Positions 3,399 through 13,143 of a DNA stretch of 35,539 nucleotides are shown in pieces. Under the pieces are notes generated by a model. The model did no database searches. It was not told the origin of the DNA and was given only the letters and a program-made list of their open reading frames with translations. A program made the translations under genes and the position numbers. Location of the stretch: NCBI GenBank assembly GCA_029261715.1, contig JAJDAT010000023.1:1-35539 (forward strand). The letters are read 5' to 3'. This stretch comes from Nitrospinia bacterium (lineage in GTDB: Bacteria; Nitrospinota; Nitrospinia; Nitrospinales; JAJDAT01). Position 1 is the stretch's first letter. Each line of letters opens with the position of its first letter.

Positions 3399-4706
3399 AT
3401 GACTCTAGTTAAACAAATTGGATTAATGGTAATGGGGTTTGGGATGGCGTTTGTTTTTTCTTTAACGCCAATCGATCTGGAGTTTGTCAAAACAGTGCGT
3501 GACCGAACCCAAGTCCGTACTTATGAGCTCTTTGACCCTATTGATCGTTCTAAAGAAAAGCACGTACTGCTCGGTAATTGTTTTACGGTCAACAACGTTG
3601 CCTATACAGATCTGTGGGGTAAGAAACCTGACATTGTTTATAGACACGGCACTGCCTTTCTTGGGCAAGTGATGAGCTACTTACTCAATTCCGAATATGG
3701 AAATGATTCTGCCAAGTTTTACGATATGGGAGCGCCGGATACTTTAGTAACCGAACATATTTTTCAACTCGGTCATTTAATCAAAGCGTCCAATATAACA
3801 ACTCTTATCTACACAAATATCAATTGGGCGCTTTACAGCTTTCGCGAAAAGAAACCTGAAAGCACTCTACAGGCAAGCGTAGTTTTAGAACATTGGAAAG
3901 ACGAATTCCCTGAAGCTCGCCCTTATATAGAAAATTATCTAAAAAGTTTATATGAATCGAAGCAATATAAAAAAACCGTTAAAAAATTTCCCGAAGGAAA
4001 CTTTCTAGATCAAATGGAGCCAAAAATCTTTCCGGCTGGTTATTCGCCATCATCTACTTCGGGAACTAACGATGTTTTCAATAAATTTTCGACATTAAAA
4101 AACTACACCATTCGGTCTTATTCACACATCAAACGCGCTAATGATAAAAGATGGAATCAACAACTAGAAACAAATGCGCTAAAGGCATTAGCCCTTTATC
4201 AAAGTCCTGCAAATGATAAACCCATGATGATGTGGAAATCTCATTCCAAGTTGACGATTGATCCAAAAAAACGCAAAGAATTCATCTGGTTTCTTCATAT
4301 AATGGGAGAGATTTGTAAGGCGCGCGGCATAAAGCTCATTTACTATTATCCACCTATGATGGGTATAGAACGCGAAAACTACGAAAAAGTATTTAGGCCA
4401 AACACAGTAAACTTTATTCAAGATGTGATAGCTCCTTACGGAGGAATCACTATCGATCATGCTTTTAAACATAATCAGAATCCGTACGACATGTATTGGA
4501 AAACCCGAAAAAACCCTCCCGTATACTTTAAAAGAGGTTTTGAGACTAACATCATCGGAAACTTCAAACGAGGTCGAGCTTTAATTGAAGAAATGGCCGA
4601 ATTGGATTTGGTGCAAATTAATCCTAAAAAACAAAATGATAAACCTTGGAGTGTTGCAGCTTTACCAAAAGTAGAAACGGAAATTGAAGAATTTCATTCC
4701 CATTAA
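3399..4706 (+). CDS. DltD-like SGNH-fold membrane protein with altered catalytic residues
   Basis: A 435-residue protein with one N-terminal membrane span (about residues 5-22) and a periplasmic SGNH-type domain. The pattern is visible: block I VLLGNCFTV (residues 56-64), a FYDMGAP block, and IYTNIN at the block III position. The usual nucleophile motif GDS/GSS is replaced by GNC, with Cys61 at the Ser position, and the C-terminal DxxH block appears as ETNIIGNFKRG without the His. In Gram-positive DltD the Ser-His-Asp set is essential for D-alanine transfer, so this is either a Cys enzyme or a non-catalytic partner. It begins the operon; the stop is 7 bp before the DltX-like gene. The DltD label rests on position and fold pattern, not on close identity. 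Confidence 0.7.
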   Translation: MTLVKQIGLMVMGFGMAFVFSLTPIDLEFVKTVRDRTQVRTYELFDPIDRSKEKHVLLGNCFTVNNVAYTDLWGKKPDIVYRHGTAFLGQVMSYLLNSEYGNDSAKFYDMGAPDTLVTEHIFQLGHLIKASNITTLIYTNINWALYSFREKKPESTLQASVVLEHWKDEFPEARPYIENYLKSLYESKQYKKTVKKFPEGNFLDQMEPKIFPAGYSPSSTSGTNDVFNKFSTLKNYTIRSYSHIKRANDKRWNQQLETNALKALALYQSPANDKPMMMWKSHSKLTIDPKKRKEFIWFLHIMGEICKARGIKLIYYYPPMMGIERENYEKVFRPNTVNFIQDVIAPYGGITIDHAFKHNQNPYDMYWKTRKNPPVYFKRGFETNIIGNFKRGRALIEEMAELDLVQINPKKQNDKPWSVAALPKVETEIEEFHSH

Positions 4707-4713
4707 ACAAACA

Positions 4714-4851
4714 ATGAATAAAGAAAACCTAAAAGATAGTTTACTAAGTGTCCTGACTGGGGTCTGCCTTTATATTGCCGTATCCCTTTTGCTCAATCCT
4801 AAGATGGTTGAGCTACAAGCAACTTGGGCCTTATTTTATGGTGATTTTTAA
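4714..4851 (+). CDS. DltX-like 45-residue single-span membrane protein
   Basis: A short ORF: ATG start, stop at 4849-4851. It fits the operon exactly, 7 bp after the upstream stop and 5 bp before the carrier-protein start. The product has a charged N-terminus (MNKENLKDS), one hydrophobic span (about residues 10-28) and the C-terminus WALFYGDF. In Gram-positive dlt operons DltX is a similarly small single-span protein whose C-terminal FxYxxF motif holds the tyrosine that takes D-Ala from DltB. Here Tyr42 is followed by Gly-Asp-Phe45-stop, giving LxYxxF at the same place. No Shine-Dalgarno is obvious, so translation is probably coupled. Without this motif I would have called it only a small membrane protein. 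Confidence 0.72.
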   Translation: MNKENLKDSLLSVLTGVCLYIAVSLLLNPKMVELQATWALFYGDF

Positions 4852-4856
4852 TACCC

Positions 4857-5093
4857 ATGGCAACCAAACAGGAAGTGATGCAATTCATACAAACCGAACT
4901 GAGCCTCAAACAAATTGAGGACGGAACAACTATGGGACAAGTTCGCGGTTGGGACTCTTTAAAACATGTTGATTTGATCTTAAGTTTTTCGGATAAATAC
5001 AAGGTGCAAATCCCACCCAGTCGGATTGGCGAATTGATTTCCGTATCGGCTTTAACTGAATACCTTCGCGAAGAAAATATCTTGGAAGATTGA
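4857..5093 (+). CDS. acyl/aminoacyl carrier protein (DltC-like)
   Basis: A 78-residue acidic four-helix carrier protein. The phosphopantetheine site is GWDSLKHVDL, with Ser34 as the attachment residue. The length matches DltC and ACP-type carriers. The start codon lies 5 bp after the DltX-like stop, and the adenylating enzyme begins 17 bp downstream. The position between a DltX-like protein and a DltA-like ligase argues that it carries the activated acyl or aminoacyl group as a thioester rather than serving fatty acid synthesis. Confidence 0.88.
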   Translation: MATKQEVMQFIQTELSLKQIEDGTTMGQVRGWDSLKHVDLILSFSDKYKVQIPPSRIGELISVSALTEYLREENILED

Positions 5094-5110: not shown

Positions 5111-6736
5111 ATGCCTATTTTTTCTTTACTCCATCAATCAGTAGAACACCATTCCAAAGTAACCCCTGATCATATCGCCATTGACGAGGGAAATAGATCC
5201 ATTTCCTACTTAGATCTCGCAACGGCTATGCAGGCAACTGCTTCCTACTTACAAACTCTAGAAGTCAAAAAAAACGAACGCATCGGATTACTAAATAGTA
5301 ATGGCATTGAAGCTTGTATAGGTATTCTCGGTTCTCTTAGAGCTGGCTCGTGTTATGTCCCGCTCAATACAACTTTTCCGGGTAAACGCTTAGCTGCAAT
5401 CATCAAAGACGCCGAAATCAAAACTATCATCTCTTCCAAGCAACATCTCGCAAAATTGGTCGAGTTAACTCAAGAAACTAGCGACTTAAAATTGAACTCA
5501 TTAATCATTCTTGACGCTTCTGAAGAAGAAATTCAATTTCATAACTCGTTTGACACTCTCTCCTCTTGCTTTAGAAAAATCGTCGGGCAAGAAACTCTTA
5601 AAAAAAGTATTTCGCTGAAACCTTGCTCTACAGCTGAAGATGACCTGGCCTACATCATGTATACCTCGGGAACAACGGGAACCCCCAAAGGCGTCATGAT
5701 TTCGCATAAAAACGTTACGTCTTTTTTAACCTGGGCTGTCGAATATTTTTCTTTAACTTCTCAAGATCGCATGTCCAATCACTCAGATATTAGTTTTGAT
5801 TTGAGCGTCTTCGATATTTTTGGAGCTTTCTATTCTGGCGCGACTCTTTGCCCGATATCTCAACCTGGCGATTTTGCTTTTCCAGCAAATTTCATAAAAG
5901 TTCGTAAACTTACTATCTGGTTTTCTGTGCCCAGCGTTATTGGAACTCTTTGGAAAAGCGGTCAGCTAACCGAAGGAGCGTTTTCTAAATATTTACGTTG
6001 GGCTATTTTCTGCGGCGAAGCCTTGTCTCCAAAATATGCCGACCTTTGGATAACAACACATCCTAAAACATCCATTTGCAATTTATACGGACCTACCGAA
6101 GCTACCATCGCTTGCACTTACCATAATGTAGATATCGACTCTAAATTTGATCCTGGTGAAGACGTCCCTATCGGCCTTCCCATTGGCGATACAGAAATTA
6201 ATATTTTGAGTGATGATTTAGAAAATCTAAACAGTAATAAGCAAATAGGAAAATTGACAATTTCTGGTCCACAGGTATCTCAGGGATATTGGGGAAGGAA
6301 AGAACTCACAGACAAAGTTTTTATTTCCAATGAGCCAAGTCGATTTTACGATTCTGGAGATCTAGCTTATATAGATGAAAATAGTTTTATTCGTTTTGTA
6401 GGTCGAAAAGATACCCAGATAAAAATTCGCGGGTACCGAGTTGAACTTGGAGACATTGAAAATGCAATAATAAGTCACTCGATCGTCAACGAAGTTGCGG
6501 TTTTATTTTTTGACGAGCCCCCCTCTTTACTCATTGCGACAGTCACCTTACAATCTCAAACTAAAGATCGATCAAACGACGCTATCGAAGAGGATATTCT
6601 CGAACATTGCGAGCGCTTAATTCCTTCATATATGGTTCCCAATCGAATTATTTTTTTCCCCGAACTGCCTAAAAATGTGAATGGAAAAATTGATCGCAAC
6701 GCTATCCGAGAAACTCTCCGTAAAAACTTAAAATAA
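5111..6736 (+). CDS. AMP-forming adenylating ligase (DltA-like, amino-acid adenylation type)
   Basis: A 541-residue ANL-superfamily enzyme with the core motifs in order: A3 YTSGTTGTPKGVMISHKN, A4 FDLSVFDIFGAF (its Asp is the residue that binds the amino group in amino-acid adenylation domains), A5 NLYGPTEATIACT, A7 YDSGDLA, A8 GRKDTQIKIRGYRVELGDIE and A10 NGKIDRN with the catalytic Lys. It should adenylate a carboxylic acid, probably an amino acid, and load it on the carrier protein at 4857. It is slightly longer than Gram-positive DltA (about 500). A free-standing adenylation domain beside a single carrier and an MBOAT protein indicates Dlt-type chemistry rather than a peptide synthetase. 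D-Ala as substrate is inference. Confidence 0.88.
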   Translation: MPIFSLLHQSVEHHSKVTPDHIAIDEGNRSISYLDLATAMQATASYLQTLEVKKNERIGLLNSNGIEACIGILGSLRAGSCYVPLNTTFPGKRLAAIIKDAEIKTIISSKQHLAKLVELTQETSDLKLNSLIILDASEEEIQFHNSFDTLSSCFRKIVGQETLKKSISLKPCSTAEDDLAYIMYTSGTTGTPKGVMISHKNVTSFLTWAVEYFSLTSQDRMSNHSDISFDLSVFDIFGAFYSGATLCPISQPGDFAFPANFIKVRKLTIWFSVPSVIGTLWKSGQLTEGAFSKYLRWAIFCGEALSPKYADLWITTHPKTSICNLYGPTEATIACTYHNVDIDSKFDPGEDVPIGLPIGDTEINILSDDLENLNSNKQIGKLTISGPQVSQGYWGRKELTDKVFISNEPSRFYDSGDLAYIDENSFIRFVGRKDTQIKIRGYRVELGDIENAIISHSIVNEVAVLFFDEPPSLLIATVTLQSQTKDRSNDAIEEDILEHCERLIPSYMVPNRIIFFPELPKNVNGKIDRNAIRETLRKNLK

Positions 6737-6748
6737 GAGGCTCTGCAT

Positions 6749-8452
6749 TTGTTTCAGTCCATTTTTTTATCTATGGAGAATTATTATGTTGAGTCGACTT
6801 TCTATGTCGCGGTAATCATTGGAATTCTACTTTATCGCATAATTTGCCGCTGGTCTTCTCCCCAACCCAAACAAATCGCGTTTATCGGCCTAAATATTTT
6901 TTTCTTGTTTCAACTAAAAGAAGCAAATCAATTTATTCCTCTACTGATTGCTTATTTAATCTGTGTTATCGGTTTTGGTTATTTAATTTTTCAATCAAAG
7001 TCGGAGAGACGGCGAAAATTAACATTTCGAATTGGAATCGTTTTTTGTTTATCTACGTTAGCGCTTTTTAAATATCCCAATTATATCTACCTGATTATGG
7101 GTGGAGAAAATATATTAAGAACACTTTCAACACTGGAGTGGGTTGGTCTTTCGTATTTAACCTTCCGGGCTATAGATTTCATTATCATGGTCCATACCAA
7201 ACGTATCAAAGAATTTAACCTTTTAATAATCTGCTCCTATTTTATTTTCTTTGCTCCGTTTGTCTCAGGGCCCATCAATCGTTTTCTACCGTTTGTCAAA
7301 AACCAAATCGCTCCGGATACATCACTCGACTTTTCTAGACTACGGCGTAACCTACTTAGAGTTTCTATTGGCATCATCAAGATTCTTTTTCTTTCCAAGT
7401 TGGCGTATGCAAATTCAATCATCGCTCCTGAATTTCAGATTATCCAACCCGTTGACATTATTGTCTTAACTTGGAGCGTTTACGCCTATTTCTTTTATAT
7501 TTATTTTGAATTTTCAGGTTACTGCGATATCGCTATTTCAATCGCTGATTTTTTTGGAATAGACGTTCCAGAAAACTTCGAATATCCATTCCTTGCTTCT
7601 AATATTCAAGACTTCTGGAATCGTTGGCATATTTCTCTTTCGCAATGGATGCGCGACCACGTATTTTTCCCGTTAACAATTTATTTAACGACTCGAAAAA
7701 TTCTTCCCAAACTGGCGGTTTCTTGCTTGAGTATTTTTGTTACTTTTTTTCTTATTGGAATATGGCATGGCAATTCTTTGAACTGGGCTTTGTATGGAAT
7801 CTATCATGGAATTGGACTCTCTCTTTACATGTTATACAACCAAGTTCTCAAAACTAGATCTCCAATTTTCTTTGAAAAACTAAGCGACAATGCAGGCTAC
7901 AAAATCATTTGTATCCTAGCTACTTTTAACTTTGTTGCTTGGGGCTTTCTATTGACCCTCGACCTTCAAAAAGCCAAAAACATATTGGACAACCCTTCCT
8001 CGATGTCTTTAGTTGATGAAAGCTATTCAACTATTCCAAACAACCTTTTCTCTTCTGAAATCGAAATCAGGCAAGCTTCGGAAGGAATATTAGTTACTCC
8101 GCTTTCTAAGGCTAAAAGCTCGCCACTGTTGCTGCTTGGCGGAGGAAGCTGGAACAGCCTATCGTCAAAAGATGGTTGGGAACTAATTCCTAGGGCATAC
8201 TATAGAGGTTCTTTAACTGGCGACATGTCTACGGAAGGTGAAATCGAAGTTCTATGCTTGATGTATAACAGCAAGGGACAATTGATTCGGCAAAAATCAT
8301 TGGGGTTCATCCGCTCTTATGCTTTGCCAATCATTTTTGATTTCGAAGGAATCGATCCAGCCATTAGATTCAATATAGCGTTATCTGCAAATCTAGAAAA
8401 TTGGCCAAAGGAAATAACTCTAACCAAGCTGCGAATAGAAAAAATAAACTAA
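6749..8452 (+). CDS. MBOAT acyltransferase (DltB-like) with extra C-terminal beta-rich domain
   Basis: A 567-residue polytopic protein. The TTG start at 6749 is chosen because AGAGG lies 8 nt upstream; the next ATG (6773) lacks a ribosome site. The MBOAT core (to about residue 410) contains FEFSGYCDIAISIADFFG, NIQDFWNRWHISLSQWMRDH, IGIWHG with the catalytic His340, and YHG with His353. DltB and AlgI homologues pass an acyl group across the membrane. DltB is usually about 400 residues; here residues 414-567 form a non-membrane, beta-strand-rich tail (for example RAYYRGSL, GEIEVLCLMYN, GQLIRQKSLG) resembling a jelly-roll or carbohydrate-binding module. It starts 12 bp after the ligase and ends this operon segment. 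Confidence 0.88.
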   Translation: MFQSIFLSMENYYVESTFYVAVIIGILLYRIICRWSSPQPKQIAFIGLNIFFLFQLKEANQFIPLLIAYLICVIGFGYLIFQSKSERRRKLTFRIGIVFCLSTLALFKYPNYIYLIMGGENILRTLSTLEWVGLSYLTFRAIDFIIMVHTKRIKEFNLLIICSYFIFFAPFVSGPINRFLPFVKNQIAPDTSLDFSRLRRNLLRVSIGIIKILFLSKLAYANSIIAPEFQIIQPVDIIVLTWSVYAYFFYIYFEFSGYCDIAISIADFFGIDVPENFEYPFLASNIQDFWNRWHISLSQWMRDHVFFPLTIYLTTRKILPKLAVSCLSIFVTFFLIGIWHGNSLNWALYGIYHGIGLSLYMLYNQVLKTRSPIFFEKLSDNAGYKIICILATFNFVAWGFLLTLDLQKAKNILDNPSSMSLVDESYSTIPNNLFSSEIEIRQASEGILVTPLSKAKSSPLLLLGGGSWNSLSSKDGWELIPRAYYRGSLTGDMSTEGEIEVLCLMYNSKGQLIRQKSLGFIRSYALPIIFDFEGIDPAIRFNIALSANLENWPKEITLTKLRIEKIN

Positions 8453-8795: not shown

Positions 8796-10826
8796 TTGAA
8801 TAACAAATTTTGGCGAAATTCAGCGATACTCGTAATTTGCCTTTTAACAAGCTGTGTTTTGTTAGAAGTAACCATTCGAGTATTTCTTCCTCAAAAAATT
8901 GAACCTAACTATCACACCCCCGCTTTTAAAATACCAAATGCCCTACGTTCGAATGTCGATATAAAAATAAAAGAACACGAACCCATTCCCGACTATCAAA
9001 TAGTTACTAACGAAAAAAATATTCGAAATAATCTGCCTATTCCATATCAAAAGCCATCCCAAGAATTTCGAATATTGCTCCTGGGTGATTCAGTATTTTT
9101 CGGCCCTGGAATTCAATTTGAAGAAACATTCTCTAATCAGCTTGAAAAGTTCTTAAACGTAAACGCCAAAGAAAAACGTTTTAAGGTAATTAACTCATCT
9201 GTTCCGGCGTGGGGGCCTTTAGAATATTTTGTTTATTTAAAAAATGAAGGTCATAAATATTCACCCGACCTGATCATCATCAGCAGTTTCCTCGACGACC
9301 TTAGGCAAAGCTTTTCCCAAAAAATAACTTTCCGCGACATTGAATGGGAAAAAACAACCGACGGTTTCTTGAAGATTAATTTAATAGGAATGCAAGTTTC
9401 ACTTTCTAGAAATACAATCTTAACTACTCTTTGGGAAAAAATAAGCCAAGCTGATTGGTACGCTAAATTATCTCAAACATCTCATTTACTCAATTTAATT
9501 CGGTTTCGTATGAGCGCTGTATCATCTCAGGGGTTTCCAAGCGCCTCTTCAGAAGGAAAATCTCTGAAAGATTTTTTAAAGGAATCCGGTCTTAGACTAA
9601 ACCCAAAAACTATTTGGAGCTATGAATCTAAACTTCTAAAGATAAATCCTGAATATCAACCAGCGTTATATTTTGCCAACCGATATAAACAGGATGTGGT
9701 CGAAGCGGAAGCAAATGTTGTTCTATATAATGTTCTAATGCAGGAATTTCTTGATTTAGCCTCCACAGCGGCGGGAAAAACTCTGATACTCAAAATCCCT
9801 TCTTTCTTCGAAGCTGTTGGATTGTCACAACCCAAACATCCAGAATGGGTTTTTGATCAAACCGATACAACCCAACACTTAGATCTATTTAAGCCATTTT
9901 TTGATTTTCAAAATTCACATTCACCTTTTCTCTTTTTTCACTTTAATAACCACTGGACTCCAGGTGGCCATCTATTTTTCGCTAAGTTATTAGCGCGCTA
10001 CATAAGCGATAAAAAACCTTTCCGTCAAATTCACGAACTCCCAAAGCAATCGATATCATGGCCTCCAGAGACCCACCAATCGGTTGAAAACGCTAACTTT
10101 AGAATTCTAGAGTTTTTAGAGAAAGATCATTACCAATTACTTTTGAATGGGATGCGCCAGAAAAACCAAAACTTGCTAAAAGAAGCCGAAAAAACTCTAA
10201 CTCAATATATTCAACTGCAACCAGAGCAGTACGAAGCTTATTTTCATCTTGCAATGGTTCATTTCAAATTAAAACACTATCAGAAAGCGTTAGCCCTGCT
10301 AACCGAAGCGCAAAAAGGCCATGCTTTAGAAATTCCTAAATATCGTCGAGCCTACAAATTTATAAAAAATTATTGGGAAGGTGAGAAAAATCTTAGCCAA
10401 GGCCAATTTAAAAAAGCCCTTCCGTTTTTTCTAAAAGCCGATGAGACTGAAAAAAGACGGGAATTAGTGAACAACGAACTCGCTACTATTTACAGTACAT
10501 TGAAAAATTTTACCAAGGCGGAATTTTATTACAAAAAGGAGATTAAAAAACGCCCGGGTTGGGTCCCCTCGCACCTGAATTTAGGTTCGCTTTATCTAGC
10601 GAACAAGCAATATAATCAGGCTATCAAACAGTATCAAAAAGCCTTAGAAATAGACCCAAACTTTTTTGGAACATACACTCTAATAGGAGAGGTACATTTT
10701 AAATTGGGAAAACGGGATATCGCCATTAAAATGGGACAAAAGGCTTTACAATTGAAACACGACGACCAATTCACAAAAAGCCAATTAAAAAAATGGACCG
10801 CAGCCCCTCTTGTTCAAAGAAAATAA
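8796..10826 (+). CDS. membrane-anchored SGNH-fold protein fused to C-terminal TPR repeats
   Basis: A 676-residue protein starting at TTG, with an N-terminal span (about residues 9-31). The SGNH domain follows: block I ILLLGDSVFFG with Ser99, then INSSVPAWGPLE, and a block V written FNNHWTPGGH, where Asn replaces the usual Asp before the His, as in AlgX/AlgJ-like proteins (D-x-H-W-T). Residues about 453-665 form TPR helices, for example AYFHLAMVHFKLKHYQKALA and LGSLYLANKQYNQAIKQYQK. It probably works in the periplasm, either transferring or hydrolysing acyl groups on a glycan while the TPRs hold partners. The last 34 bp overlap the next gene, suggesting coupled translation. Confidence 0.8.
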   Translation: MNNKFWRNSAILVICLLTSCVLLEVTIRVFLPQKIEPNYHTPAFKIPNALRSNVDIKIKEHEPIPDYQIVTNEKNIRNNLPIPYQKPSQEFRILLLGDSVFFGPGIQFEETFSNQLEKFLNVNAKEKRFKVINSSVPAWGPLEYFVYLKNEGHKYSPDLIIISSFLDDLRQSFSQKITFRDIEWEKTTDGFLKINLIGMQVSLSRNTILTTLWEKISQADWYAKLSQTSHLLNLIRFRMSAVSSQGFPSASSEGKSLKDFLKESGLRLNPKTIWSYESKLLKINPEYQPALYFANRYKQDVVEAEANVVLYNVLMQEFLDLASTAAGKTLILKIPSFFEAVGLSQPKHPEWVFDQTDTTQHLDLFKPFFDFQNSHSPFLFFHFNNHWTPGGHLFFAKLLARYISDKKPFRQIHELPKQSISWPPETHQSVENANFRILEFLEKDHYQLLLNGMRQKNQNLLKEAEKTLTQYIQLQPEQYEAYFHLAMVHFKLKHYQKALALLTEAQKGHALEIPKYRRAYKFIKNYWEGEKNLSQGQFKKALPFFLKADETEKRRELVNNELATIYSTLKNFTKAEFYYKKEIKKRPGWVPSHLNLGSLYLANKQYNQAIKQYQKALEIDPNFFGTYTLIGEVHFKLGKRDIAIKMGQKALQLKHDDQFTKSQLKKWTAAPLVQRK

Positions 10827-11959
10827 TTATTTCTCTATTATTACAAATTGCTACCACATTAATAATAATATTAGGATACGAAGCATATTTCCAAAGTAGA
10901 GCAAACCGAGCTTCAGCTATTAAATTTGATTCAGAGCTTGGCTGGGCGCCTATCCCTCACAAAATTTCTCCAGCAAATTTATATTATAAATTCAAATTAA
11001 ACTCTTTAGGTTTTAGATCCCAAGAAATAGATCCATCTAAAGAACATATTTTATTACTGGGAGATTCTGTAGCCTGGGGAATTAAAACAAGCGATAACGA
11101 AAACTTTTCATTCTTCTTAGGCCAAAAACTTTCTAACTACCAAGTTATTAACATGGCAGTTCCAGGATATGGAATTGACCAAGCCTATTTATTCTTGAAA
11201 AGACATATCCATAAATTAAATCCCAAATTAATTATTTTAATGATTCACACCGGAAATGATTTATACGATACGGGATCTAATAGAGTTATTGGAAAAAATA
11301 AACCTCTATTTGTTCTTCAACAAAATGAGATAAGGTTGTTCACAAACAAAATTTCAAGATTCTCATGCACCAACTTAATATATGGAAGTCATATACTCAG
11401 AAAACCTTTTTTAAGTTCTCTTAAAAGCAAATTATGCAAAAATAAAATTTTACGTTTAGACGAAGCAAGTAATGTTATTGGCGCCCTATTTCAAAAAATC
11501 AACGAGTTGAGTAATAAACATCAAGCGAAAGCTCTTTTTGTCATCTCTCCCTCTAAAAAAGATTTAAAAGTAGAAATATGTCGACATAACTCTTCACTAA
11601 GTTACTGCCAGGCTTTTCGAAGGTTATTATTTTCAAACGTTAAAAATCAAAACTCGAAAAATCTTCAAATCAACAATTTTAAATCCATTAATTTAAAACC
11701 CTTAGGTTTAGCTTCCCCACTAACTGTAAAATCTATACTAAGAATAGAATGGGGCGCTTCAATAATATTTCAAGATATTTTGAAAGCTTCAAACTTGAGT
11801 TATTTTGATTTTTCACTAGTTTTGGGAAAAACAAAACTAATAAACGATCTAGTTTCCGAGATCTATGTCGACAATTCCCATTATTCAGCAAAGGGGAATA
11901 AACGATTTGCAGATAACGTTGCAGACTGGTTGTATGAAAATAACTGGATAAATAATTAG
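10793..11959 (+). CDS. membrane-anchored SGNH/GDSL hydrolase-family protein, paralogue 1
   Basis: A 388-residue protein: N-terminal span (about residues 10-28), then an SGNH domain with LLLGDSVAWG (Ser92), NMAVPGYGI (Gly block), HTGNDL (Asn block) and DNSHYSAKGN holding the C-terminal Asp and His. All four catalytic blocks are present, so it is probably an active periplasmic esterase or acyltransferase. The start overlaps the upstream SGNH-TPR gene by 34 bp. It is clearly a tandem duplicate of the next gene: both share FDSELGW, LNSLGFRS, GDSVAWG, TGNDL, ISRFSC and WGASIIFQDILKAS at the same spacing. The substrate is unknown; the locus suggests an acylated glycan. Confidence 0.8.
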   Translation: MDRSPSCSKKIIISLLLQIATTLIIILGYEAYFQSRANRASAIKFDSELGWAPIPHKISPANLYYKFKLNSLGFRSQEIDPSKEHILLLGDSVAWGIKTSDNENFSFFLGQKLSNYQVINMAVPGYGIDQAYLFLKRHIHKLNPKLIILMIHTGNDLYDTGSNRVIGKNKPLFVLQQNEIRLFTNKISRFSCTNLIYGSHILRKPFLSSLKSKLCKNKILRLDEASNVIGALFQKINELSNKHQAKALFVISPSKKDLKVEICRHNSSLSYCQAFRRLLFSNVKNQNSKNLQINNFKSINLKPLGLASPLTVKSILRIEWGASIIFQDILKASNLSYFDFSLVLGKTKLINDLVSEIYVDNSHYSAKGNKRFADNVADWLYENNWINN

Positions 11960-11970
11960 AGTTCAGCCCA

Positions 11971-13143
11971 ATGCTCCAATTTCTAAAAACGAAAAAGAAA
12001 GAGATAAGTCTAGCCCTTATTTCGGGAATTGCCACTCTATTGATAGGAGCTGTTGGATTCGAATTCTATTTCCAATATAAAACAAACAAAGAATCTGCTT
12101 TTCAATTTGATTCGGAACTTGGTTGGTCGCCAACACCTAATAAAAAATCATCTATTAACCGATTTTCTAATTTTCAGCTCAATTCCTTAGGATTCAGATC
12201 TAAAGAAATAAACGAATCCAAAAAGCATATTTTAGTGTTGGGAGATTCTGTCGCGTGGGGGTTTGGGACTAATAACCAAGAAGCCTTTCCTTCCTATTTA
12301 GGTCAAAGTTTTACAAACTCCCAAGTATTGAATATGGCAGTTTCAGGATATGGTATTGGCCAAAGTTATTTATTTTTAAAAAAACATATTGATAGAGTTA
12401 ATCCAAAACTGATTATTTTTGTCATTTACACAGGAAACGATTTACACGAAACAGGATCAAATATGGCTTATGGCAAGAGTAAACCTATATTTGTCATTCA
12501 AAATAATCAGATCAACCTAATTAACGATCATATTTCAAGGTTTTCATGCATTAACTTGATTCATGGGAGTCATTTATTGAAAAGACCATTTTTTGATTTC
12601 TTAAAAAATGGATTCTGCGAAATTAAAACATTAGGTTTGAATCAAGCGACAAAAGTAATAACAACCTTATTTCAAACAATTAATGCCATCGGGTTAAACC
12701 ATAACGCTAAAACATTATTTGTAATTTCTCCTTCCAAAAGCGATTTAAAAATCGAAATTTGCAGATACAATCCAACTCATGACTATTGCCGAGCGTTTCA
12801 GAATCTTTTGTTTCCCAATCAGAATAAGAATTCAAAGACTAATAGATTTTATATAAAAAACTTTGAATCTCTCAATTTAAAACCCTTAGGTCTATTTCCT
12901 CCCTTAACTGTAGATTCTATAAAAAGTTTGGAGTGGGGAGCTTCAATAATATTTCAGGACATCTTGAAAGCTTCCGGTCTAAATTATTTTGATTATTCTT
13001 CTGAATTGGCTAAAACGAAACTAATACATGAACAGCTTTCAGATCTTTATATTGATGATGCCCACTATTCTGCTCAAGGGAATAAGCAGCTTGCAAATAG
13101 CATTGTAAATTGGTTGAGGAAAAACCGTTGGATGGATAATTAG
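11971..13143 (+). CDS. membrane-anchored SGNH/GDSL hydrolase-family protein, paralogue 2
   Basis: A 390-residue protein, tandem paralogue of the previous gene, starting 11 bp after its stop. It has an N-terminal span (about residues 12-30), then LVLGDSVAWGFG (Ser93), NMAVSGYGIG, YTGNDLHETGSN and DDAHYSAQGN with the C-terminal Asp and His. The catalytic set is complete, so duplication has not inactivated either copy. Similarity is high along the full length by eye, with most changes in the middle third, which could mean diverging specificity. It is the last gene of the rightward acylation locus and is followed by the bidirectional terminator at 13159-13209. Confidence 0.8.
   Translation: MLQFLKTKKKEISLALISGIATLLIGAVGFEFYFQYKTNKESAFQFDSELGWSPTPNKKSSINRFSNFQLNSLGFRSKEINESKKHILVLGDSVAWGFGTNNQEAFPSYLGQSFTNSQVLNMAVSGYGIGQSYLFLKKHIDRVNPKLIIFVIYTGNDLHETGSNMAYGKSKPIFVIQNNQINLINDHISRFSCINLIHGSHLLKRPFFDFLKNGFCEIKTLGLNQATKVITTLFQTINAIGLNHNAKTLFVISPSKSDLKIEICRYNPTHDYCRAFQNLLFPNQNKNSKTNRFYIKNFESLNLKPLGLFPPLTVDSIKSLEWGASIIFQDILKASGLNYFDYSSELAKTKLIHEQLSDLYIDDAHYSAQGNKQLANSIVNWLRKNRWMDN

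Follow-up and report, generated by a model that had tools for sequence, protein, structure and literature searches.

A DltX-like microprotein in a Nitrospinota operon as a probable separate acyl-relay subunit

The frame at positions 4714-4851 on the forward strand of the window, the whole 35,539-nucleotide stretch of Nitrospinia DNA analyzed here, is a real gene under purifying selection. It encodes a microprotein of 45 residues, MNKENLKDSLLSVLTGVCLYIAVSLLLNPKMVELQATWALFYGDF, which is a candidate DltX-like acyl relay. Within the Gram-negative Nitrospinota host, this microprotein very probably serves as the subunit that relays acyl groups in a Dlt-like machine for acylating the envelope; we infer the acyl-tyrosine chemistry, the topology, the donor, the role of the neighboring 3399-4706 protein and the acceptor polymer. 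The initial annotation had described a 45-residue frame ending in LFYGDF in the gap between two tightly spaced genes. This is exactly what was found, with the frame starting 7 nt past the stop of 3399-4706 and ending 5 nt ahead of the carrier ATG at 4857. The evidence supports a larger find than was stated then, in which the microprotein is a DltX analogue with many counterparts among diderm bacteria.

The window operon and its candidate acceptor

The genes for the D-position protein, the microprotein, the carrier, the adenylation enzyme and the MBOAT all lie on the forward strand. The microprotein has a predicted transmembrane segment at residues 10-26 (4741-4791; best 17-residue hydropathy 2.36), followed by the C-terminal LFYGDF (4831-4848), in which Tyr42 is encoded at 4837-4839 and Phe45 at 4846-4848. 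The gene at 4857-5093 occupies the DltC position and encodes a putative acyl or aminoacyl carrier protein with a GWDSL motif, whose Ser34 is the likely Ppant site. Its PP-binding match (19 bits) is just below the cut-off, and its best NCBIfam match, acyl carrier protein (2.3e-05), is also below the cut-off. The gene at 5111-6736, in the DltA position, encodes an AMP-forming amino-acid adenylation enzyme (PF00501, 268 bits) that passes the cut-off of TIGR01733 (348 bits against 317) and stays under that of the DltA equivalog TIGR01734 (307 bits against 559.85). D-alanine is not claimed as the donor, because gramicidin synthetase domains outscore DltA among the PDB relatives of the A-domain and its substrate cannot be read confidently from them.

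The gene at 6749-8452 encodes a DltB-type MBOAT. It matches the DltB equivalog TIGR04091 (LTA_dltB) with 223.6 bits, under the cut-off of 375, and its family profile, searched against the PDB, matches DltB chains alone at E<=0.001 (6bug and 8jem, about 250 bits). H283 and H329 are invariant across six aligned relatives. A fused tyrosine motif was sought at its C-terminus and is absent, the end being TLTKLRIEKIN; the other MBOATs found in the window genome end in FIYFQF (5/5). The window MBOAT also has an extra C-terminal region of about 150 aa past the core; both Nitrospinota copies share this region, and none of the other aligned DltB-type MBOATs has it. A chimeric assembly was considered and is countered by the 16S piece at the window start, which has 87-90% identity to the 16S of 16 among the 40 other genomes searched from the order and fits a Nitrospinota host.

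From this gene content, a relay can be proposed. The adenylation enzyme would charge the carrier with an acyl group that is most likely an amino acid. The MBOAT would receive this group from the carrier and, as its own C-terminus bears no tyrosine motif, is proposed to hand it on to Tyr42 of the microprotein. The single helix of the microprotein would keep the C-terminus on the periplasmic side, and the acyl-tyrosine would then swing to an extracytoplasmic partner, probably the anchored 3399-4706 protein, which would put the acyl group on an envelope polymer. The Lys/Arg count of the window microprotein, 2 on the N-terminal side and 1 on the C-terminal side, is a weak topology signal.

Among the 76 genomes searched, the same operon is found in one other, G013, which belongs to another family of the same order of Nitrospinota. 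Its gene order is D-position protein, microprotein, an extra 247-aa protein, carrier, adenylation enzyme and MBOAT. Identity between the two operons is 48% for the D-position protein, 56% for the microprotein, 54% for the carrier, 52% for the ligase and 50% for the MBOAT. The extra protein (L052, 9648-10391), between microprotein and carrier, is without a Pfam match and has Cys-rich stretches by eye.

The gene at 3399-4706 occupies the DltD position and encodes a 435-aa protein with an N-terminal membrane anchor, a candidate extracytoplasmic acyl acceptor or transferase. Family searches gave no notable Pfam match, no NCBIfam match and no PDB match by profile, and among 76 genomes (that of the window and 75 class relatives) the protein was found only in the window genome and G013. 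Residues 295-413 have a weak profile link to SGNH partners from Bacteriovoracia (hhalign probability 56%). Cys61 (LLGNC) occupies the place of the nucleophilic Ser in SGNH block I and is also Cys in G013; there is no His at the usual SGNH place. By eye, the block I residue is likewise Cys in the L060, L096 and L105 partners and Ser in those of L095, L104 and other Bacteriovoracia proteins. The final transferase of the window version may use a Cys nucleophile. A structure prediction from the two-sequence alignment reached a pLDDT of 36, and no fold is claimed. The second half of the relay is thus uncertain, because 3399-4706 has no detectable family, Cys in place of Ser, no usual His and a low pLDDT.

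Downstream, at 8796-13143, three genes in a row encode anchored proteins of the SGNH/GDSL type. The first of these proteins has TPR repeats, and the last two are similar paralogs of 388-390 aa; all three are absent from the G013 operon. It is possible, although we consider it rather unlikely, that the relay is real and that its immediate acceptor is one of these proteins or another, with 3399-4706 having a different role. The protein at 10793-11959 has weak GDSL matches and those at 8796-10826 and 11971-13143 have GDS-type block I motifs by eye, while 3399-4706 has no recognizable SGNH triad; however, 3399-4706 is conserved in G013 with no such SGNH genes alongside.

In sister systems, the corresponding position can be read more clearly. 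A model of a D-position protein of Bacteriovoracia (pLDDT 75.8, pTM 0.76) has SGNH hydrolases and DltD among its top Foldseek matches (3bma 2.5e-06, 6o93 3.4e-06, 7dxm 1.1e-05), and VIA-align gave Z 17.3 for TesA (rmsd 2.6, 175 aligned) and Z 14.5 for PatB (rmsd 3.6, 183 aligned). Judged by this model, the Bacteriovoracia partner proteins do have the SGNH fold. At the FkbH-type locus L124, Pfam identifies the partner as a GDSL protein with a score slightly below the cut-off, and the L121 partner is above it.

Separate microproteins and fused motifs

The fused motif is present in 50 of 53 other MBOAT ORFs examined, a set that includes some near-copies (L057-L059, L072/L084 and L073/L116 are near-copies or the same gene). 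The three MBOATs without it are short, about 370-400 aa, and for this reason a survey of non-fused loci was undertaken. A scan of the genome collection with two MBOATs gave 13 loci, among them loci from Melainabacteria, Halobacteriovorax and Eisenbacteria that have a non-fused MBOAT and a neighboring transmembrane microprotein with a tyrosine end. Follow-up searches at E<=1e-60 matched 9 of 146 and 10 of 129 genomes, some with fused types. The scan-derived loci, the searches around those genomes and the short MBOATs of Nitrospinota together provided 26 non-fused loci; G024:C50, whose MBOAT is cut by the contig end, was left out. A strict filter was applied (28-75 aa, hydropathy >1.6, terminal Tyr motif, same strand, within 4 kb). 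It identified a microprotein at 23 of the 26 non-fused loci and at 1 of 28 fused-MBOAT loci, and opposite-strand controls gave 1/26 and 1/28, respectively. A looser look raised the first count to 26/26; L126 had been excluded by the overlap rule, and the microproteins of L119 and L122 end in EIVYWDQ and PIVYWDE.

Pseudomonadota were sampled separately. The phylum of a Pseudoroseomonas genome was represented by 398 genomes, 60 of which had a profile match at E<=1e-48. Fourteen loci, short-looking or highest-scoring, were taken, and one of them (L184) is fused. A microprotein was found at 12 of the 13 non-fused loci, including that of L195 by the looser look and that of L187 on the opposite strand; none was found at L185. 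No protein in the 398 genomes reached the Pfam DltX cut-off, and the same search matches Bacillus subtilis and Lactococcus lactis. In total, a neighboring single-TM microprotein with a near-terminal Tyr is present at 38 of 39 non-fused DltB-type MBOAT loci, which are motif-less MBOAT matches taken with their flanks and no random sample; the rows L053 and L052 refer to one and the same place. These loci span Nitrospinota, Melainabacteria, Bacteriovoracia, Eisenbacteria and Pseudomonadota. This shows that, in diderm bacteria, non-fused DltB-type MBOATs are accompanied in nearly every case examined by a single-TM microprotein with a tyrosine end.

A tree of 42 non-fused and 23 fused MBOAT rows needs 2 changes of the separate/fused label, compared with 19.1 for shuffled labels. 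Separate rows are spread across many deep lineages. Of the fused rows, most cluster in a single group, and a second small fused pair (L184 and L144) stands beside a separate row. The window pair clusters (85/80) with the Melainabacteria, one Bacteriovoracia row and part of the Pseudomonadota. The root and long branches of this tree are uncertain, so that it does not give the order of the two states.

These distributions bear on whether the tyrosine takes part in chemistry. Small single-TM subunits are generally known to stabilize complexes, often without doing more, and the microprotein might serve only in the structure or assembly of the MBOAT complex, with Tyr as a packing residue and no acyl transfer. 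This is improbable, because the Tyr-x-x-Phe end is separate where the MBOAT has no motif and fused where no such protein is seen, and because the same Tyr is acetylated in PatA (PMC12148441).

An acyl-relay function, which we prefer, places the microprotein downstream of a carrier, and carrier genes do tend to accompany it. A carrier gene on the same strand is found no more than 7 kb away at 22 of 26 separate loci, compared with 5 of 29 fused ones (Fisher p 5.6e-7, indicative only because the rows share ancestry). These five fused loci speak against the carrier as the sole determinant of a separate or a fused motif, and the association is a tendency and not a rule. On contig C4 of the window genome, a fused-motif MBOAT at L127 7042-8505 has a carrier gene 30 nt away; therefore, a carrier-fed and a fused arrangement can coexist.

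The loading enzymes vary. The window has an adenylation enzyme, and AMP-binding enzymes are found in L103, L118 and L122. In two tested loci from the class of Halobacteriovorax, which we take to be Bacteriovoracia, a class-II aaRS-like protein (PF00587) is present instead (L101 and L105). At these two loci, the ligase stands beside the carrier, the DltB-type MBOAT and the microprotein and is a possible aminoacyl:carrier ligase feeding envelope aminoacylation. Carrier-loading enzymes of the aaRS-like kind have been described (PMC9437257). FkbH-type proteins are found at L124, above the FkbH_N cut-off, and at L060, just below it. Nitrospinota have a second, commoner module (L120-L126) composed of an FkbH-type protein, a carrier, a short MBOAT, a 50-aa microprotein ending in FIYAGF or FVYAGF, and a GDSL partner, and it is predicted to transfer glyceryl groups to the surface. 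The surveyed loci would supply the surface with amino acids or glyceryl groups.

The microprotein gene and its conservation

Counting back from the C-terminus, the tyrosine takes fourth place in 32 and third place in 8 of 40 microproteins compared (38 from the survey, L151 from a Chloroflexota plasmid and the Firmicutes DltX control L150). The eight belong to the Halobacteriovorax class and mostly end in FGFQYEF. The final residue is Phe in 33 of 40. The presence of Tyr in 40/40 is circular and descriptive only, because the motif helped to recognize most distant microproteins. The end does not vary freely, as it should not under the reading of the initial annotation: distant analogues keep Tyr three residues from the end (two in one lineage), and the last residue is usually Phe. 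In most rows, Lys and Arg on the N-terminal side equal or outnumber those on the C-terminal side, in keeping with an outside C-terminus. The L151 microprotein (4490-4633 of the Leptolinea plasmid AP024711.1) is annotated as a hypothetical 47-aa protein, BCY19582.1; it ends in WIYQGF and adjoins a non-fused DltB-type MBOAT in Chloroflexota.

Independent evidence for the microproteins is the selection test, which covers ten pairs from several lineages. These gave dN/dS values of 0.00-0.44, with dS saturated in four. In the window, the frame starts with ATG at 4714 and ends with TAA at 4849-4851; an in-frame TTG at 4684, upstream of this ATG, would make 55 aa. When the peptide was searched against 100 related genomes, one real relative was found, in G013 (E 2.5e-11, 55% over residues 6-45), and the second-best match had E 0.025. 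Family look-ups with the peptide gave nothing useful, DUF2653 at E 0.097 being at chance level.

The G013 microprotein has another length and ends in VMYYGDF, and the two share the pattern LLNPKM..L.ATW...YGDF. Conservation of Tyr42 and Phe45 and purifying selection on the orthologous frame had both been expected, and both held in the only orthologous locus found: the equivalents of the two residues are retained, and the same residue is encoded at 24 of 44 codons, 12 of these 24 with a changed synonymous codon. This gave pN 0.27 and pS 0.81, with synonymous sites saturated; within the Nitrospinota lineage the test is small, with two copies only. That the frame is untranslated and its likeness to G013 is DNA-level constraint or chance deserves hardly any credence: the frame is short and a strong ribosome-binding site was not seen by eye, but its conservation is at the protein level with synonymous change, it fits tightly in the operon, and the syntenic ortholog differs in length yet keeps the C-terminus.

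Relation to DltX and to other Dlt-like systems

As described in the PatA report, the acyl group is carried by the Tyr of a C-terminal hexapeptide, FXYXXF; in Firmicutes this hexapeptide belongs to DltX, and in other systems it is part of the MBOAT itself (PMC12148441). The motif likeness noted in the initial annotation is partial, as Tyr and the final Phe match and the first position is Leu instead of Phe. The positive control L150 (Enterococcus casseliflavus) ends in AFIYNEF, compared with LFYGDF in the window and MYYGDF in the ortholog. DltX of the Firmicutes dltXABCD operon is likewise a single-TM protein of about 45-50 aa with a Tyr-motif end and is encoded with a carrier, a ligase and a DltB-type MBOAT. 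The adenylation enzyme, the DltB-type MBOAT and the carrier of the dlt gene set are present in the window, whereas the D-position protein is not recognizable as DltD. The gene order is D-X-C-A-B in the window and X-A-B-C-D in Firmicutes, and the window host is diderm.

The window microprotein had no match to PF12459 (DltX) at E<=10, the curated cut-off being 25 bits, and a search of its own genome gave no PF12459 hit here; the controls L150 and L056 scored 57.6 and 33.3 bits in the same search. The microprotein would work like DltX, through an acyl-tyrosine, and is by sequence no member of the DltX family. A DltX analogue in a Gram-negative bacterium, as originally proposed, is supported, and Pfam DltX membership by sequence is not. 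A genuine Pfam DltX outside Firmicutes was observed in Eisenbacteria (L056 8838-8996; 33.3 bits, cut-off 25), where the locus also has genes resembling those of DltA and DltB. The L056 MBOAT groups with the DltB proteins of Firmicutes (99/97).

Fused-motif MBOATs (PatA, AlgI and relatives) have the same motif and a proposed acyl-Tyr relay to a second transferase, as in the window (PMC12148441). In the PatA type, the motif is located on two extra MBOAT helices and the PatA donor is acetyl-CoA, whereas in the window it is located on a separate gene product and the donor, by gene context, would be a carrier protein. This 2025 report describes other MBOAT/SGNH pathways as having neither a carrier protein nor a microprotein of the DltX kind (PMC12148441). 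The initial annotation had seen an extension of the relay mechanism beyond teichoic acids. The novelty is the separate microprotein outside Firmicutes and not the relay, because the tyrosine relay is already established for fused-motif MBOATs such as PatA (PMC12148441). A literature search, with most subscription papers outside its coverage, returned no description of separate DltX-like microproteins beyond Firmicutes, and absence is not claimed.

The dltBAC and dltD genes of Dickeya and Pectobacterium form a Gram-negative Dlt-like operon, as in the window. In Dickeya dadantii, dltBAC and dltD have been described and dltB is needed for full polymyxin survival (PMC3544676). In the available text of this report, dlt occurs 36 times and dltX does not occur (PMC3544676). 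The published dltB primers match locus L194 with 3 and 2 mismatches at a distance of 1675 bp, compared with the stated 1.7 kb fragment (PMC3544676); L194 is therefore probably from Dickeya or a near relative. It has an unlisted microprotein, ending in HFEYQKF, between the D and B genes, and the microprotein gene (5779-5901) falls inside the dltB primer fragment. The MBOATs of the L194 type and of the window are far apart in the tree, and their X sequences share only the TM segment and the motif.

It can be hypothesized, and we hold it somewhat more probable than its opposite, that separate Tyr-ended microproteins mark a general carrier-fed acyl export module of diderms. Its core would be the carrier, the DltB-type MBOAT, the microprotein and an SGNH partner, and its loaders (adenylation enzyme, class-II aaRS-like ligase or FkbH) would be interchangeable. 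If so, FkbH would yield a glyceryl-carrier, and amino acids or glycerate would be added to the surface polymers of such bacteria. The fused-motif MBOATs would represent either a derivation or a parallel solution, in most cases CoA-fed. Microprotein and carrier occur together in at least five diderm lineages, and a Dickeya-like dlt operon is among the loci; family profiles mostly miss them. A missing subunit of this kind would hinder the reconstitution of such pathways from annotated genes. The find gives predictions for surface aminoacylation and, with FkbH, for surface glyceroylation.
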